Shown here in pieces: positions 34,971 through 42,915 of a stretch of DNA of 42,915 bases. Each line of letters begins with the position of its first letter. The stretch's first letter is position 1. The notes beneath the pieces are model-generated. The model had not been told where the DNA came from. It did not search any database and saw only the letters and a list, made by a program, of their open reading frames with translations. The DNA is from an uncultured Alphaproteobacteria bacterium. GTDB taxonomy: Bacteria > Pseudomonadota > Alphaproteobacteria > RF32 > CAG-239. Made by a program: the position numbers and the translations under genes. The DNA lies in contig CASFQO010000006.1 in the NCBI GenBank assembly GCA_949297145.1, positions 1 through 42,915 of the forward strand. Reading direction: 5' to 3'.

Positions 34971-35474
34971 TTAGGCTTCTGATGATTTGTGGGATTTTAA
35001 GTATTTTTCCCATAATTCATCGGTTAATACGATTTTTGCTTTTGTTATAGCTGAGAAAGGTACTTTATATGTATTTTCTCCGTCTTCTATAATTATTTCT
35101 TCTTCCGGTGTAACCTCTTTTATGACACCTTTGAAACGCTTTCTCTTTTCTATCAAATCTGAGGTTTCAACTTTGGCGGTATCACCGACAAATCTTTTGA
35201 AATGTTCTAATTTTGTAAGCGGTCTGTCTAACCCCGGGGAGCTTACTTCTAGCGTATATTTATTTTCTATCGGGTCTTTTTCATCCAACACAGCAGAAAT
35301 TGCACGACTAACTGTTGCACAATCATCCACCGTCAATTCTTTTTCAGGATCTTTTTGTTCAATCATCACCTGCAGTGTCGGGTTGGTTTCACCAATGGTG
35401 GTGATGCGAACCGTTTCGTATCCTAAATCTTCAACTATCGGTTCAATCAGATCCGCTAAATAATGCCTCTGCAT
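34971..35474 (-). CDS. rimP: Ribosome maturation factor RimP
   Basis: RimP (167 aa) is required for 30S maturation, acting with S12. The first domain shows LADLIEPIVEDLGYETVRI and the hallmark segment DCATVSRAISAVLDEKDPIENKYTLEVSSPGLDRPL; the second, smaller beta domain follows. The open frame could start at TTG 35477, but the ATG at 35474 has GGAG six bases away and is preferred. It is the first gene of the translation block. Only 24 bases separate its start from the terminator-like hairpin at 35499-35526, so the promoter must lie upstream of that hairpin. Confidence 0.94.
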   Translation of the reverse strand: MQRHYLADLIEPIVEDLGYETVRITTIGETNPTLQVMIEQKDPEKELTVDDCATVSRAISAVLDEKDPIENKYTLEVSSPGLDRPLTKLEHFKRFVGDTAKVETSDLIEKRKRFKGVIKEVTPEEEIIIEDGENTYKVPFSAITKAKIVLTDELWEKYLKSHKSSEA

Positions 35475-35642: not shown

Positions 35643-38600
35643 TTAAAATTTGTACTTCAATCCAACATCTACTTTTATCGGATATTCTTTTTCAAGGTAC
35701 TGCATCAGCTCGCCATAAATGGATATATCTTTGTAATCATAGTTTATTCTTGCTGAAATAACCCCTCTATCGCGAGAATCTGTGTTCTCTATATCTCGTA
35801 ATTTATAGGAACCCAGTGTATCATTGATATGAGCATCCAATCCTCTATACGGATCTGCAAACTCGTGATAGTAACCAATGCCTAGCATTACATTCATCTT
35901 GTTATCCGGGGCAAACTCTATATCCTTATCCAAATATAATCCTAAGGCACTTTCTAGTGAGAATATGTGCGATGAAGCTATTTGCAGAGCAAGACTTTCA
36001 TCTCCCTCATCTATAGAATCTTGGTACCAGCCTATTGCATTTAATCCAACAAACGGTGTTAAATTTACAGCTCCCAAATCCATTTTATAACGTAATTCAT
36101 TCAACCAACCATAAGTTATCTCGGTTGTATCTGCCTCAAACGTATGTTGATAGCCTCTTCTTCTATAATCTCCATCTGCGAATCCGAGACGTGCCATCGA
36201 AACGGCAGTTAATCCGTTGTTGCTGTACGTTAACGGAACATAACCTTGTACCATAAAGCTCTTACGGCTTGAATCATTGTTATAGTCGGTATTTGTATGC
36301 GTGAAACTCATACCTAAACCTAGACGATATTTGTTGTTCATTTTCTTATCATACAACGCATACATGCTTTGTGAAGTGATGTCATAGCCGCTTAATGTGC
36401 CTCTATCATCACGACCAATATACATAGCATCACCGCCTACCATCTTTCTGACATCTCCACCTTCTTTAAAGAGTTCTGTCATCATGGTTTTATCGAGACT
36501 TCTCTGAACTTTCAGGTTTTCTTGTGCCATATTCGGCAGTGTTGAGGTGCCTAATATGTCTGCTTCCCGCTGTTTATACTCTTTAGCGCTTCCGGCACCT
36601 TTTAAGGCGTTGTATAAATCGCTGTTTTGTTCGTACATATAGTTCTTTTCAAGGTATGCGGCTTTATCTTCATCTGTCACTTCATTGAAATCTTTCATTT
36701 CCATCACAACGTCATATTTGCCATCTTCATTTTTGACCATATCGGTGTTGTACAAATATGATTTTGAACTTAAGTTTACGCCGCTAACATCTTCTGCCGA
36801 CAAAGCATCTTCTATCATCGATGTTGTTTCAAAGGTGTTTGTGACAACGTTTGTGGATACTTTTAAGTCGCCGCTGATGCTGTCTTCAGCTTCAAACTTA
36901 CCACCTTGACTTATAACGACATTGCCTCCCCAATCATCAAAATTCATACTGCCAACACTGCTCATTGTACCACTATTGTCGTATGTGGCACCATTTTCAA
37001 GCTTGATTGCCGCGCCATTATTACAATTTCCACCGCTGCAGCTTTCACCATTAATGTTGATGGTTCCTGTATTATTTACGGTTGCTGTTGCTCCGGCAGC
37101 ATATATGCCGACATTTGCGCCTTTACCGCTTAAGTTTATTATACCATTATTGATGACGGTGGCTCGACCTGATTCGGTGCCGTCTGATATTGCATATATA
37201 CCATAGTTACTCCCATCACCGGTTACATTGATAATTCCTTTTGCATCATTGATGGCGGCTCCTTTATTAAGATATATACCATATCCGTCAGAACCTCTTG
37301 TTGTGTCTACCGTTATTTCTGCATTGTTTGTTATATATGAGCTATCGCCTTTCATGCCGTATGCAGCGGCTTTCCCTCTTGATTTGACGTGTATGGATGA
37401 GCCTAAACCGGAGTTGTTTAGGGTTGCGTTACTGCCATACATACCTGCTGCTATACCGCCATTTGCTCCACCATAAACATCTACATTGATGGTTCCGACA
37501 ACCGAAGCATTTGAATTGGAGCTGTATGAATTGTATGCACTACCGTCTTGTACATAAATGCCATAGTATTCGGCATCTGATGTTGCAGCCACATTTGTTG
37601 CTGTTACGTCGATAATTCCGCTGACAGCCCCTTCTGAAATATCGCTGCTATTTTCATAATACGCGTTATATACGGTTTTGGGTTGGGCATTTTCTGCACT
37701 TTCGTCCGTACTATAACTTGTTGCATATATTCCATACATCTTATTTGGTGCTCTGGCCCCGGTTGCTGTTACATTAATCGTCCCTTTGGCTGAATTTTTA
37801 TCATTTACAACGGCGGCATTATATATTTTACTACCTTGTGGGTTGATGGAATCGCTATATATTCCGGCTGCTGTCGAGATGCCGCTTTTCATTTCGTTAG
37901 CTTGAACCGTTATCTTCCCCGTTACGACGGTTGCTGTGTTTTTGTTTGAGCCCATGCTGTAGGCATTGGCTATAGTTGCACCATTACTCTGCATACCTCT
38001 TAAGTTTACACTTCCGGAGGTACTGTTATCTGTTACGGTTATATTACCAACTGTAGCAAGGCCCACATCGGAACCCGAATTTGCATATGAGTTGAATGCA
38101 TTACCTTCTGCCCACATACCTACCACTTGTGTCGTTAAGGAGCTGTATCCGTTAATTATAACATTTATATTACCGGTAGCCAATCCATTGCCATAAATTG
38201 CGGACGAACGAAAGGCGTTATATGTGTTGTTATAATAAACTTCGCTTTCACCCTCTTCGTTTTGTCCTGTATAAGTTTGTCTTCCGGAATATATTCCAAC
38301 GGCACTGCCTCCGGCCGTGTTGATGACGTTGATATTTCCGGTACTATTATACCCTTTTGCATTATATACACTGGTTTGTGTGCTTGGAGCACCTTTGGCA
38401 TATATTCCATATGCAACGCCGGTTTCATTATTTGTGGTTGCATTGATTGTTCCGGTGGAGCTGAAGTTCTGTATTATATTATAGTTTTTCTCAAATTGAG
38501 TTTCACTATTGGTTATTGTTCCATTGCCGGACATACCATAGACATAACTATTACCGCTGACGGTTATATTCCCCTCTGCTACTGCATTTGATACAGCTGA

Positions 38601-41135
38601 ATTCAAGTATGCAAATGAATTATATATTCTTCCTGCGCTATTGACACCGTTTATTCCCGTTACGTCGCCACCTCCTTTATGGGTCAAATTTATATTGCCG
38701 ACTGTATGCACATTCGCATTGATACCATTGTCCGTAAAGGCATAACTGTTGTACAAGTTTTTCCCGCCTTGCATACCTGTTATTGTGCCTCGACTTGTTT
38801 CTGACTTCGTTATTTCTATGTTTCCCTCAGCATTGTTTTGACTTCCTTCTACAACCGTTCCACTGCCATATGAAAAACTGTTATAAATATTATTTGCAGA
38901 GTTATTATATAACCCATAAATGGTTGATGAGGTGTTATCATCATTTATATTAATCGTTGCGGTTGCTATATTGTTGCAGCCACCTTCGCATTTGCCATTA
39001 TTTATTACTGCACCGTTATATATATCAGATTGTGAGTAGATTCCGTATACAAAGTTACCTCCTGTATTTATATTGTTTATTTCGATAGTTGCACTTTCTG
39101 TACCAGATGAGGCAAGCGCATTATATACATTGTCAAAGTAAGTTATATTTCCCTCTTCATCTTCGCTCTGTATCGGTTTCATTCCATAAACGTCACGCAA
39201 TATGCCATCATTACTTACGGTTATTGTACTATTGTTTATGTTGGATGTATAGGCTCCAATTAAGTCTGCTTCAACTTTTTCACAAACTCCTGCAGCACTC
39301 ATACGCCATCCATTATCTGTATCGCAACGGCATACCCCTGTTTCCGGATCTTTAATATATCCTTCTACTCCGGTTGTGCACTCTGTTGTGATACAAGTAT
39401 TATCAGTTTGGCTAAATTCATAACCCTCTGCACACTGATCACACATCGGGTTTACATTTATCGGAGCACGATTGTCGGCGCATTCTAAGCCACAATGTCT
39501 TCCTTCTGCATCTACAGTTATTTTATATTGTTTTGGGCAAATATCACATTCCGATCCCGTCCATTCTTCCTCACATATATATTTGGTCAGATAACATATA
39601 TCTGCCCCTTTATCATACTCGTATCCTTCTTTACATGGCTCACAACCACCATTTGTTTGATCAAACCCATCTTTACATACACAATGATCACCTTGTTGTA
39701 TATAGTGTAGAGGACAGGAAATTTGCTCAATGCAGGTCATCTTTTCATTTTCGTAATATTCAATATATCCGTTTTCTATATCGCAAACGCACCTATCATT
39801 TTGTTGTACAAGATGATTACCTTTTGATTCACACTGTAGATCAGCAAAACACATTCCATCAAATTCCAGATAATTTGCACTACAGCTAGAGCAATCTGTT
39901 CCTGTATAACCTTTGTAACAAAGACATATTTTGCTTTCTACGTCATACTTACCATGCGAATTACAATATAATTCATTGTAATTATTCCATTCTTCAATTT
40001 GTTCTTCGCCTTCTTGATACTCTCCATCATCGGCTGTTTGTGAGCATCCTGAGGTATATGGATCTCCTGTGTATCCTCTTTTAGTATCACAAATACAAGT
40101 CGCTCCATAATTTGTTGGTACTGAATTTGGATATGCTTTACATATATTTGTATCGTAACACATATTCATATTAGGATCACCCCAAGTATCATACGGAGGT
40201 ATACATTCTTTACATATATTTTGTACTTGGTTTAAACAATGTTCTATGCTCGGATAACATTGGGTTTCATCTCCATATGTTCCGTAGCCAGCGTTACATT
40301 CTTGACATATATCCATATATTGGGTCTTGCAATTTGGAATATCTAAATAACATTTACTACCGTCACCGCCATGAATGCCATAGCCGCTTTCGCATTGAGT
40401 ACATTTGCTTCCATTTTGTAATATACAATGATCTATTTGGCGATAACAAATATTTCCTTCTAAGAAATATCCATCTTTACATTTTTCGCAAGTTCCAGCT
40501 TTTTGAACACTACAGTTTGCAACGGTTGCATAACATTTTGAAACATCACCATAGTTACCGTAACCACTGTCGCATATACATATTCCATCATATTCGTGGC
40601 TATTGGGCGGGCAGTTTGTTCCCGGTTTATCCGGATTGTCCGGATCATTTGGATTATCAGGATTACTTGAGCCCCCACCACTGCTGCTTCCATCGGTATC
40701 ACCTCTAAAAATATATGCGGCGGCAACAGCTCCGGCAGCAACAGCAGCCGTACCGATTAAATATGGCGAATCAGGGACATAACTTTTTACAGCTGTTTGT
40801 TTTGGGGATATTCCAAAAAAACGGCGGTAAGCACTATCCGGAATTTTTTTCAGACATTGGGGATTTTCATTTGCTCCGTATGAAGCCAACACCTTATAAG
40901 CCTGATGATTTTGTCTTATGACAGATAAGCAGACTGCATTATAGCCACGCTCATCCACACTTTCAAGTGAATAGCCTTTTTGTATTAAATTTTCTATTTT
41001 CTGGGTATTATTTTGTCTGGCCAGTTCATAAAATGCACGTGCGACACTTATCTTTCCTCCTGCGGCTTGAGCAAACAGAGGTAGTCCACACACTAATACG
41101 CCGATAAACGTATATATTTTTTCATTTATTTTCAT
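35643..41135 (-). CDS. Giant autotransporter with ankyrin, EGF-like and repetitive beta-helix regions
   Basis: A 1830-aa type Va-like secreted surface protein, not matched to a named adhesin. Order (counted from ATG 41135): signal peptide (1-24, ending FAQA); two ankyrin-like repeats (about 31-92); a hydrophobic Ala-rich segment (about 123-142); a Pro/Asp/Asn linker (about 155-172); a Cys-rich stretch to about 635 with EGF-like units of about 40 residues, several ending GYGxYGDxSKCY; a long Gly/Asn/Ser/Thr-rich passenger with repeated G-x-I-N-V and Y-G-I-Y patterns, likely a beta-helix; and a C-terminal autotransporter beta-barrel (about the last 270 residues) ending LKYKF, the terminal-Phe barrel signature. 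ATG 41135 is chosen over GTG 41147. The ribosome-binding site is weak at both. Likely secreted via Sec and inserted with BAM help. Confidence 0.9.
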   Translation of the reverse strand: MKINEKIYTFIGVLVCGLPLFAQAAGGKISVARAFYELARQNNTQKIENLIQKGYSLESVDERGYNAVCLSVIRQNHQAYKVLASYGANENPQCLKKIPDSAYRRFFGISPKQTAVKSYVPDSPYLIGTAAVAAGAVAAAYIFRGDTDGSSSGGGSSNPDNPNDPDNPDKPGTNCPPNSHEYDGICICDSGYGNYGDVSKCYATVANCSVQKAGTCEKCKDGYFLEGNICYRQIDHCILQNGSKCTQCESGYGIHGGDGSKCYLDIPNCKTQYMDICQECNAGYGTYGDETQCYPSIEHCLNQVQNICKECIPPYDTWGDPNMNMCYDTNICKAYPNSVPTNYGATCICDTKRGYTGDPYTSGCSQTADDGEYQEGEEQIEEWNNYNELYCNSHGKYDVESKICLCYKGYTGTDCSSCSANYLEFDGMCFADLQCESKGNHLVQQNDRCVCDIENGYIEYYENEKMTCIEQISCPLHYIQQGDHCVCKDGFDQTNGGCEPCKEGYEYDKGADICYLTKYICEEEWTGSECDICPKQYKITVDAEGRHCGLECADNRAPINVNPMCDQCAEGYEFSQTDNTCITTECTTGVEGYIKDPETGVCRCDTDNGWRMSAAGVCEKVEADLIGAYTSNINNSTITVSNDGILRDVYGMKPIQSEDEEGNITYFDNVYNALASSGTESATIEINNINTGGNFVYGIYSQSDIYNGAVINNGKCEGGCNNIATATININDDNTSSTIYGLYNNSANNIYNSFSYGSGTVVEGSQNNAEGNIEITKSETSRGTITGMQGGKNLYNSYAFTDNGINANVHTVGNINLTHKGGGDVTGINGVNSAGRIYNSFAYLNSAVSNAVAEGNITVSGNSYVYGMSGNGTITNSETQFEKNYNIIQNFSSTGTINATTNNETGVAYGIYAKGAPSTQTSVYNAKGYNSTGNINVINTAGGSAVGIYSGRQTYTGQNEEGESEVYYNNTYNAFRSSAIYGNGLATGNINVIINGYSSLTTQVVGMWAEGNAFNSYANSGSDVGLATVGNITVTDNSTSGSVNLRGMQSNGATIANAYSMGSNKNTATVVTGKITVQANEMKSGISTAAGIYSDSINPQGSKIYNAAVVNDKNSAKGTINVTATGARAPNKMYGIYATSYSTDESAENAQPKTVYNAYYENSSDISEGAVSGIIDVTATNVAATSDAEYYGIYVQDGSAYNSYSSNSNASVVGTINVDVYGGANGGIAAGMYGSNATLNNSGLGSSIHVKSRGKAAAYGMKGDSSYITNNAEITVDTTRGSDGYGIYLNKGAAINDAKGIINVTGDGSNYGIYAISDGTESGRATVINNGIINLSGKGANVGIYAAGATATVNNTGTININGESCSGGNCNNGAAIKLENGATYDNSGTMSSVGSMNFDDWGGNVVISQGGKFEAEDSISGDLKVSTNVVTNTFETTSMIEDALSAEDVSGVNLSSKSYLYNTDMVKNEDGKYDVVMEMKDFNEVTDEDKAAYLEKNYMYEQNSDLYNALKGAGSAKEYKQREADILGTSTLPNMAQENLKVQRSLDKTMMTELFKEGGDVRKMVGGDAMYIGRDDRGTLSGYDITSQSMYALYDKKMNNKYRLGLGMSFTHTNTDYNNDSSRKSFMVQGYVPLTYSNNGLTAVSMARLGFADGDYRRRGYQHTFEADTTEITYGWLNELRYKMDLGAVNLTPFVGLNAIGWYQDSIDEGDESLALQIASSHIFSLESALGLYLDKDIEFAPDNKMNVMLGIGYYHEFADPYRGLDAHINDTLGSYKLRDIENTDSRDRGVISARINYDYKDISIYGELMQYLEKEYPIKVDVGLKYKF

Positions 41136-41139
41136 ATAT

Positions 41140-41148
41140 TTATCCACA
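41140..41148 (+). promoter_or_regulatory. DnaA box (perfect TTATCCACA)
   Basis: An exact nine-base match to the DnaA consensus, on the + strand, just upstream of the ATG of the autotransporter. It overlaps the alternative GTG start region. Confidence 0.6.
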
Positions 41149-41314: not shown

Positions 41315-42915
41315 ATGACTGAGAAGAAAAAATATTACCCCGAATTAAATGCTAAAATCAATTTTCCGGAAATGGAAAAGAATATTTTGAACTTCTGGGA
41401 AGAAGATAAAACTTTTGAAAAATCTGTGCATAACCGTGACGGTGCTGCCGAATTTGTCTTCTATGACGGTCCTCCGTTTGCAAACGGTACACCTCACTAT
41501 GGTCATATGATGGTTTCATATGTTAAAGATGCGGTTGCTCGTTTCCAAACAATGAGCGGTAAAAAAGTTGAGCGCCGTTTAGGTTGGGACTGCCATGGTT
41601 TGCCGGCTGAAATGTCTGCCGAAAAACAACTTGGTGTTTCCGGCCGTAAACAGATTGAAGCTTATGGTGTCGAGAAATTTAATGATTTCTGCCGTAAAGA
41701 TGTTTTGAAATATTCCAATATTTGGGTTGATATGTTTAAACGTATCGGTCGTTGGGTGGACTTTAATCATGATTATAAGACTATGAACCTTCCTTTTATG
41801 GAAAGTGTTATCCATAACTTTAAGGAACTTTATGATAAGGGGTTGGTTTATGAAGATTATCGCGTCCTTCCTTATTCTTGGGCTGCAGAAACACCGCTTT
41901 CCAACTTTGAAGTAAACCTTGGATATCGCGATAAAACCGATAATGCCATTACGGTTATGTTTACATTGGAAAATGGGCAGAAAATTTTGGTTTGGACGAC
42001 AACGCCTTGGACGCTTCCTTCTAACTTGATGTTAGCCGTCGGAAAAGACATTGATTATGTTGTAATGAACGAAAACGGTCAAGATTATATTTTGGCGGAA
42101 GCTAGACTTGGAAGCTATAAAAAACAACTTGAAAATGCTTCATTAGTGAAAAAAATTAAGGGTTCTGATTTGGTTGGTTTGAGCTATACGCCGATGTTCC
42201 CTTATTTTTCTCACTTAAAAGATAAAGGTGCTTTTAAGGTTTTGAGCGGTGAATTTGTTTCTACCGAAGATGGTACCGGTGTTGTTCATATTGCACCGGG
42301 CTTTGGTCAAGACGACTTTGATGTTTGCCGTGCTTATGATGAGAATTTTCCGGTTGTTTGCCCGGTAGATGAAGCCGGTAAATTTACGGCAGAAGTTCCT
42401 GATTATGAGGGAAAGCAAGTTTTTGAAACAAATGAACCGATTATGCAATGGCTTAAAGCTAATGGTCTTTTGGTAAAAAAAGAACAGTACACTCACACTT
42501 ATCCGTATTGCTGGAGAACTGATACACCTTTAATTTATAAGGCGATGTCTTCTTGGTTTGTTAAAGTTACGGATTTTCGTGATGATATGGTTAAAAACAA
42601 TCAGCAGATTAACTGGTTGCCGGCGCATATTAAAGATGGTCGTTTTGGTAAATGGCTGGAAGGAGCTCGTGACTGGTCTATTTCTCGTAACCGTTTTTGG
42701 GGTACGCCAATTCCTGTTTGGAAATCTGATAATCCAAAGTTCCCGAGAGTTGATGTGATGGGCTCTATCGAGGAAATTAAAGAGAAGACTGGATTTGTGG
42801 TTGATAATCTGCACAAACCTTATATTGACGATGTGGTTTATCCAAACCCTGATGACCCGTCCGGAAAAACTATGATGCGCCGTGTATCCGATGTTTTTGA
42901 CTGTTGGTTTGAAAG
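41315..42915 (+). CDS. ileS: Isoleucyl-tRNA synthetase, type 2 (eukaryote-like), 5' part
   Basis: The first 533 codons of IleRS; the gene runs off the right edge. It charges tRNA-Ile and edits mischarged valine. The HIGH motif appears as PHYGH in FYDGPPFANGTPHYGHMM, followed by GWDCHGLPAE, the editing-domain start WTTTPWTLPSN and the DCWFE motif at the window end. The KMSKS loop lies beyond it. The form FANGTPHYGH with GKKVERRLGWDCHGLPAE and DCWFES matches the eukaryote-like type 2 IleRS of Rickettsia, chlamydiae and some others, not the E. coli type; this type is known for low sensitivity to mupirocin. ATG 41315 was chosen with GAGGA 11 bases upstream; a TTG at 41309 is an alternative start. 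Confidence 0.93.
   Translation, partial: MTEKKKYYPELNAKINFPEMEKNILNFWEEDKTFEKSVHNRDGAAEFVFYDGPPFANGTPHYGHMMVSYVKDAVARFQTMSGKKVERRLGWDCHGLPAEMSAEKQLGVSGRKQIEAYGVEKFNDFCRKDVLKYSNIWVDMFKRIGRWVDFNHDYKTMNLPFMESVIHNFKELYDKGLVYEDYRVLPYSWAAETPLSNFEVNLGYRDKTDNAITVMFTLENGQKILVWTTTPWTLPSNLMLAVGKDIDYVVMNENGQDYILAEARLGSYKKQLENASLVKKIKGSDLVGLSYTPMFPYFSHLKDKGAFKVLSGEFVSTEDGTGVVHIAPGFGQDDFDVCRAYDENFPVVCPVDEAGKFTAEVPDYEGKQVFETNEPIMQWLKANGLLVKKEQYTHTYPYCWRTDTPLIYKAMSSWFVKVTDFRDDMVKNNQQINWLPAHIKDGRFGKWLEGARDWSISRNRFWGTPIPVWKSDNPKFPRVDVMGSIEEIKEKTGFVVDNLHKPYIDDVVYPNPDDPSGKTMMRRVSDVFDCWFE

Follow-up and report, generated by a model that had tools for sequence, protein, structure and literature searches.

The first approximately 170 residues of a giant autotransporter encoded in the window (the whole 42,915-nucleotide stretch of DNA analyzed here) were, as judged from sequence, a reusable N-terminal header composed of a signal peptide, a two-repeat ankyrin domain with a cysteine pair, a hydrophobic segment, and a flexible linker. 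This header may be a hitherto undescribed part by which exported proteins are anchored or assembled. An earlier note on the window had presented these parts as an unusual combination in one chain; by the comparisons below the finding is wider, the N-terminal module being apparently new and the secretion class known, and the module was also recognized on chains without a recognized barrel.

The gene (35643..41135, minus strand) was supported by its open frame and by orthologues, and displayed an uninterrupted frame of 1830 amino acids with ATG at 41135 and the stop codon at 35643-35645; an alternative in-frame GTG start was possible at 41147, and the Met matching the ATG was used by all 12 aligned orthologues, which aligned there. 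Its parts were arranged on the minus strand as follows: (i) a signal peptide with an AxA-type end at approximately residues 1-25 (41061..41135; sequence and hydropathy); (ii) a two-repeat ankyrin domain with Cys69 and Cys94 at residues 28-96 (40848..41054; profile comparison with PDB ankyrins, hhalign, and Cys conservation); (iii) a hydrophobic segment at residues 125-143 (40707..40763), taken as a helix from its length and composition; (iv) a Gly/Ser/Asn/Asp/Pro linker at residues 144-174 (40614..40706; sequence), with similar linkers across the header family; (v) a Cys-rich region at residues 175-622 (39270..40613; sequence spacing, Pfam, and PDB profile), with tandem C-x(1-2)-C..Y..CY units and one EGF-like unit; (vi) a repetitive beta-helix-like passenger at residues 625-1405 (36921..39263; strand motif against shuffles and profile match to PDB entry 9qe7); (vii) a BigA_beta-like stretch at residues 1407-1481 (36693..36917; 22.2 bits, below the cut-off of 24.3); and (viii) an autotransporter beta-barrel with C-terminal Phe at residues 1575-1830 (35646..36413), matched by PF03797 over residues 1575-1809 (93.8 bits against the cut-off of 26; E 1.9e-26). 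Only two strong hydrophobic segments were found in Kyte-Doolittle scans, the signal (1.81, in the window starting at residue 7) and residues 125-143 (1.81), and the next window reached 1.18. By its sequence the protein is a type Va autotransporter with predicted surface exposure of the passenger; all the parts listed in the earlier note were present in the order given there and in one unbroken frame, which bore out its autotransporter assignment. An NCBIfam scan of the window protein assigned no family.

The gene was placed between a divergent class I tRNA synthetase gene, presumably ileS, and rimP-nusA-infB. The tRNA synthetase gene (41315..42915, plus strand; PF00133, 6.2e-93) ran off the window, and rimP (34971..35462, minus strand) was recognized by Pfam RimP_N plus the RimP C-terminal domain; their motifs were present in 15 and 14 of the 17 loci (window included), respectively, the exceptions being a paralogue with neither neighbor (L113), a fragment with rimP only (L110), and two loci with ileS only (L104 and L105). 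Same-order homologues did exist: relative to the window genome (a 1.4-Mb assembly, 87% complete), orthologues were found in 17 of the 18 other same-genus genomes, that of G002 being split over two contigs, and the fragmented MAG G016 gave weaker paralogue-like matches only. A one-off ankyrin fusion or an assembly join was ruled out by these orthologues and their shared neighbors. The gene or its relatives occurred in records of uncultured Alphaproteobacteria, several of which bear titles pointing to the gut of deer, buffalo, sheep, or yak, and the window itself probably comes from an uncultured gut alphaproteobacterium. Conservation among 12 orthologues was 70% in the ankyrin domain, 74% in the segment, and 76% in the barrel, against 62% in the Cys-rich region and 63% in the passenger.

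In searches with the window protein, many other long frames matched its first ~200 residues. The 22 aligned N-termini shared one plan of signal, two ankyrin repeats, and then mostly a hydrophobic segment plus a Gly/Ser/Pro/Asp-rich linker; a signal-like start was seen in 21 of them (the row of L044 was cut at its first Met), and M1, Y36, A39, C69, G87, A88, and C94 were invariant, with the divergent rows being 21-28% identical to that of the window. Pfam gave sub-threshold Ank matches only on the headers, and Ank_2 reached 16.1 bits on the window sequence alone, below the cut-off of 27.3. The header-family profile matched 359 PDB sequences at E ≤ 0.001, the best 60 of these 359 being mostly ankyrins or designed ankyrins; the best whole-sequence E of 2.8e-46 summed over many repeats of PDB ankyrins, and the best single stretches in two of these alignments gave 2.5e-4 and 3.8e-4. 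Comparison of the header profile with an ordinary ankyrin of the window genome by hhalign gave 1.2e-8.

The first cysteine (Cys69) aligned to the His of TPLH in the ankyrin consensus, and the second (Cys94) lay at about position 1 of the repeat that follows. The pair was surveyed in 101 headers from frames of at least 120 aa, those identical over the first 80 header residues being counted once; their loci came mostly from the best-ranked matches (L051-L089 and L099-L135 left out), and 18 headers scored below 100 bits (lowest 52.3). The pair was found in 101/101, with a spacing of 25 in 98 and 24 in three, a constancy partly built in because the headers were chosen by a profile with both cysteines invariant and 17 of them were orthologues of the window gene. 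In 25 headers two or more pairs with a spacing of 23-28 could be drawn, and the first was used. Gly stood five residues ahead of the first Cys in 99 headers, and the header core contained exactly two Cys in 91, three in seven, and four in three. Two ordinary signal-bearing ankyrin proteins of the window genome had no Cys in their repeats. An ordinary ankyrin fusion lacking a signature of its own was ruled out by the pair in all 101 headers. The location of the ankyrin part between signal and hydrophobic segment had been called strange for a normally cytosolic domain; for this lineage that judgment did not hold, since the ankyrin belongs to a conserved header on many proteins, and signal-bearing periplasmic ankyrins are known, namely RARP-1 of Rickettsia parkeri and AnkB of Pseudomonas (PMC9553169, excerpt). 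These two would share with the header a signal-bearing ankyrin in the periplasm, but they are not described as outer-membrane protein fusions in that excerpt. A tandem of two header ankyrins, both of them with a Cys pair, preceded a single hydrophobic segment in L227:250-4071(+) and in L228:645-4547(-).

The Cys-rich region of the window protein (448 residues) contained 52 Cys at recurring gaps. Its first five tandem units had the form C-x(1-2)-C..[GP]Y..CY rather than that of six-cysteine EGF, and one unit matched EGF_Teneurin (25.1 bits in a 420-aa piece against 22.7 in the full chain; cut-off 24.3); the EGF-like label applied earlier to the whole region fitted only part of it, this one unit, and that marginally. 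The best PDB match of the region was a weak one to the EphA2 Cys-rich region (6.5e-5). The unit number was variable: among the 17 loci, the unit pattern matched three to seven times in the 15 with a long orthologous frame, and not at all in the fragment L110 and the paralogue L113. Such a Cys-rich passenger had been regarded as unusual, in agreement with the excerpted text of PMC8151025, in which type 5 proteins are generally Cys-poor. Residues 625-1400 carried 12 G-[NTKI]-[IL]-[NTKED]-[VIA] strands against a mean of 0.34 and a maximum of three in 2000 shuffles, this motif having been picked post hoc after inspection of the passenger. A profile of residues 1150-1830 with homologues matched the repeats of the solved giant autotransporter 9qe7 (whole-sequence E 8.9e-74; best single stretch 1.8e-11), and the passenger is accordingly predicted to be beta-helix-like and repetitive. 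DsbA homologues, proposed earlier as a check, were found as DsbA-family proteins in 19/19 same-genus genomes, and among these 19 genomes DsbB and VKOR were each found in none.

The header profile matched 126 of the 153 genomes of the window's family, in 16/16 genera, at 1e-3 (a threshold that also lets in ordinary ankyrins), and 107 of the 154 genomes of its order, in 15/17 genera, at 1e-9. At the latter threshold, 21 of 385 genomes matched in the class draw: (i) G177, G206, G294, and G345 by the ankyrin part only, and (ii) the remaining 17, of which 13 lay outside the window's family and were spread over seven families. In the phylum draw, six of 398 genomes matched at 1e-9, those matching along the header being the window's genome and G220 (same class) only, and four genomes of family f189 matched the ankyrin positions only. 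The window genome itself contained four headers at E ≤ 1.4e-45. Besides the window gene, they belonged to L037, an autotransporter of 1129 aa containing 12 Cys; L036, a 1814-aa chain whose PF03797 barrel was found when the C-terminus was scanned alone, was absent from the whole-chain scan, and to which an NCBIfam scan gave no family; and L136, an S8 subtilase (4.7e-35) in which motifs of the Asp, His, and Ser sites were recognized. One contig of this genome breaks off at a barrel end, which hints at another gene. A protein with a signal-like start and YENGxxKExxxY repeats adjoined a header autotransporter in each of two genomes [L037:3436-4977(-) and L049:6302-7828(+)].

The chains joined to the header were compared in sets from which near-identical orthologues and partial duplicates had been left out. 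At E ≤ 0.01, the 81 post-header regions matched Peptidase_S8 (22), EGF_Teneurin (9), and EGF_laminin (3), and the 62 C-termini matched Autotransporter (40) and OMP_b-brl (7), with at least 15 matching neither. Of 10 further C-termini of header proteins, seven matched PF03797, and those of L165, L148, and L196 gave no match. S8 members numbered 16 by a strict motif, 20 by a relaxed motif, and 22 of 81 by Pfam. None of 10 S8 C-termini scanned alone rose above any Pfam cut-off, the S8 C-terminal profile gave no hhalign match to autotransporter barrels (probability 0.8%), and nothing was matched in PDB at 0.1; no barrel was thus recognized in the S8 members tested. The S8 C-termini [L136:433-1332(-) plus 13 related ones] had a conserved region of ~300 residues ending in Phe, Phe-Asn, or Tyr in 14/14 rows, which may be an unrecognized barrel.

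Shorter forms of header protein were also found: (i) L098:1456-2559(+), in which the header was joined directly to a small OMP_b-brl/Surface_Ag_2/Opacity-type barrel with no segment, linker, or passenger, a single case with no like fusion among the relatives listed; and (ii) the stand-alone headers L093, L095, and L225, which ended right after the segment without a passenger and could be remnants. L225:251-751(-), with a lipobox-like start and a C-terminal hydrophobic segment, looks like a lipoprotein-like stand-alone header. On the header tree (a quick tree with several long branches), the S8 class took nine changes (eight without cut rows) and the Cys-rich class seven, against 18.2 in shuffles, so both classes clustered; well-supported branches forced at least three changes for S8 and at least four for the Cys-rich class, which indicates that header and chain classes recombined more than once.

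The segment was the most hydrophobic window after the signal in 92 of the 95 proteins ranked among the 101. In the 98 passenger-bearing proteins (L098, L093, and L095 left out), its Kyte-Doolittle mean was 1.75 on average and at least 1.6 in 72, and Lys plus Arg per 15 aa amounted to 1.71 before the segment against 0.71 after it, with 54 having none after it. The insertion score of these segments had an unfavorable median of +1.9 and was favorable in eight of 98, and the stand-alone segments of L095, L225, and L093 scored -3.76, -1.97, and +0.75, respectively, all on a crude scale that failed to set polytopic controls apart and gave signal regions +3.2. We infer that the segment passes the translocon in the long proteins.

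The reading preferred here, tentatively and with somewhat less than an even chance of being right, is that the header is a disulfide-clamped periplasmic ankyrin by which the N-terminus is retained. The whole chain would be exported by Sec; the ankyrin would fold early in the periplasm and be clamped by a disulfide between Cys69, at the TPLH-His position, and Cys94, where the following repeat begins; the C-terminal barrel would let the Cys-rich and beta-helix parts cross the outer membrane and exclude the clamped ankyrin. The ankyrin would then remain periplasmic; the linker would lie inside the pore or close to it, and the hydrophobic segment would pack against a membrane or a partner. The passenger would act on the surface as an adhesin that is fastened by its two ends, or is at the least held while it assembles. 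A working signal would put the ankyrin out of the cytoplasm; the stand-alone, lipoprotein-like, and small-barrel forms indicate a periplasmic role, and the occurrence of the header ahead of unrelated chains argues for a general anchoring or assembly role.

Retention is favored by the Cys pair, kept in every surveyed header despite low identity and absent from the repeats of the two ordinary ankyrins, by the three headers that stop after the segment together with the one joined to a small barrel, and by the conservation of ankyrin and segment, nearer to that of the barrel than to those of the Cys-rich and passenger parts. The DsbA-family proteins in all same-genus genomes also favor it, as does a precedent from some TpsA proteins, in which a disulfide domain stays periplasmic and is needed for anchoring (PMC8151025, excerpt). 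Against retention, the bridging of Cys69 and Cys94 rests on alignment to the ankyrin consensus, the pore-based model may not extend to the S8 members without a recognized barrel, DsbB and VKOR were lacking from the hits, the conservation gap is modest, and the direct barrel fusion is single. A looped passenger would put two strands in one pore, and small disulfide loops can cross barrels, which likewise counts against retention. A further claim is more doubtful, namely that these proteins make up a two-ended autotransporter class in which the N-terminus is locked by the clamped ankyrin and the passenger is a loop fixed at both ends, a device used in several bacterial families and perhaps by the header-bearing subtilases too.

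With about the same doubtful standing as that class, the whole N-terminal part including the header might instead be exported last and displayed at the distal tip, where the ankyrin would bind host or neighbor proteins and the segment would touch the host membrane. A classical autotransporter by default ends up with all that precedes the barrel outside, Alphaproteobacteria commonly use ankyrins as modules for interaction with hosts, and the few insertion-favorable segments would leave most segments able to cross translocon and barrel. Set against this tip location are the sharing of one header by proteases and adhesin-like chains, its somewhat higher conservation than that of the presumed exposed regions, and the existence of stand-alone headers that end in a hydrophobic segment or start with a lipobox-like signal.

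It is unlikely that the header is a transient assembly device, working as an intramolecular chaperone or as a docking part that keeps the chain close to the inner membrane or Bam while the rest is exported and is itself cleaved or exported afterwards. Such a device would suit Cys-rich passengers, which need oxidation control before export, and would be compatible with the several kinds of chain, with the S8 class having joined more than once on the header tree, and with independence from a recognized autotransporter barrel; however, inspection of the linkers by eye revealed no conserved cleavage motif, and in the stand-alone forms there is no passenger on which a chaperone could act in cis. 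That the segment is a true stop-transfer anchor, the long proteins being chimeras in which an ankyrin protein of the inner membrane is fused to an exported chain and the passenger stays unsecreted, is very improbable: the high hydropathy of most segments and the stand-alone forms ending at the segment are in its favor, but the full order and a conserved barrel are kept in orthologues and the Lys/Arg-poor flank after the segment is unlike a cytoplasmic one, while the unfavorable median insertion score, on so crude a scale, says little.

The textbook autotransporter plan consists of signal peptide, passenger, and barrel. The header adds a conserved module with a near-fixed Cys signature, placed after the signal and ahead of the passenger in chains of several kinds, and it could reveal how very Cys-rich chains are handled during export. 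If the N-terminus stays periplasmic, as in the retention proposal preferred above, the usual type Va end state would need a second form. The combination of signal, C-x24-C in ankyrin, hydrophobic segment, and Gly linker offers a sequence handle for gut and symbiont genomes. No description of an ankyrin header on autotransporters, or of such an N-terminal anchoring device, was found in the open-access literature searched, where absence is no proof; in the excerpts of two papers, the word ankyrin was absent (PMC3419190) or ankyrin and autotransporter were mentioned apart only (PMC9992710).

The window protein shared signal peptide, beta-helix-like passenger, and C-terminal barrel with terminal Phe with type Va autotransporters (PF03797), but differed in its ankyrin header, hydrophobic segment, and Cys-dense passenger. 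LapA-type retention modules of RTX adhesins have an N-terminal folded module followed by a flexible linker and use type 1 secretion; the module-plus-linker order was shared, and the proposed retention would resemble theirs in principle, whereas type 1 secretion and the lack of a same-chain barrel set them apart. NalP is a lipidated autotransporter subtilase. Among the autotransporter subtilases EprS and fusolisin of NCBIfam, the EprS model was matched by the S8 header members over the protease part, but at 58-103 bits against a cut-off of 1700 and without a recognized barrel. The two-partner passengers with a periplasmic disulfide domain are assumed here to be of HMW1 type. A disulfide-bonded terminal domain kept in the periplasm, as given in the excerpt of PMC8151025, would be the feature shared with them under our proposal, but their domain is C-terminal and their barrel separate, and the likeness of a putatively retained header would be one of principle, not of homology. 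Chlamydial Pmps, singled out in the same excerpt as autotransporters with unusually many Cys, have up to 18 Cys, against 56 after the segment in the window protein. A same-genus paralogue, L047:2104-11811(-), displayed a 3235-residue open frame with the header, a PF03797 barrel, and 247 Cys after the first Met, 244 of them after the segment.
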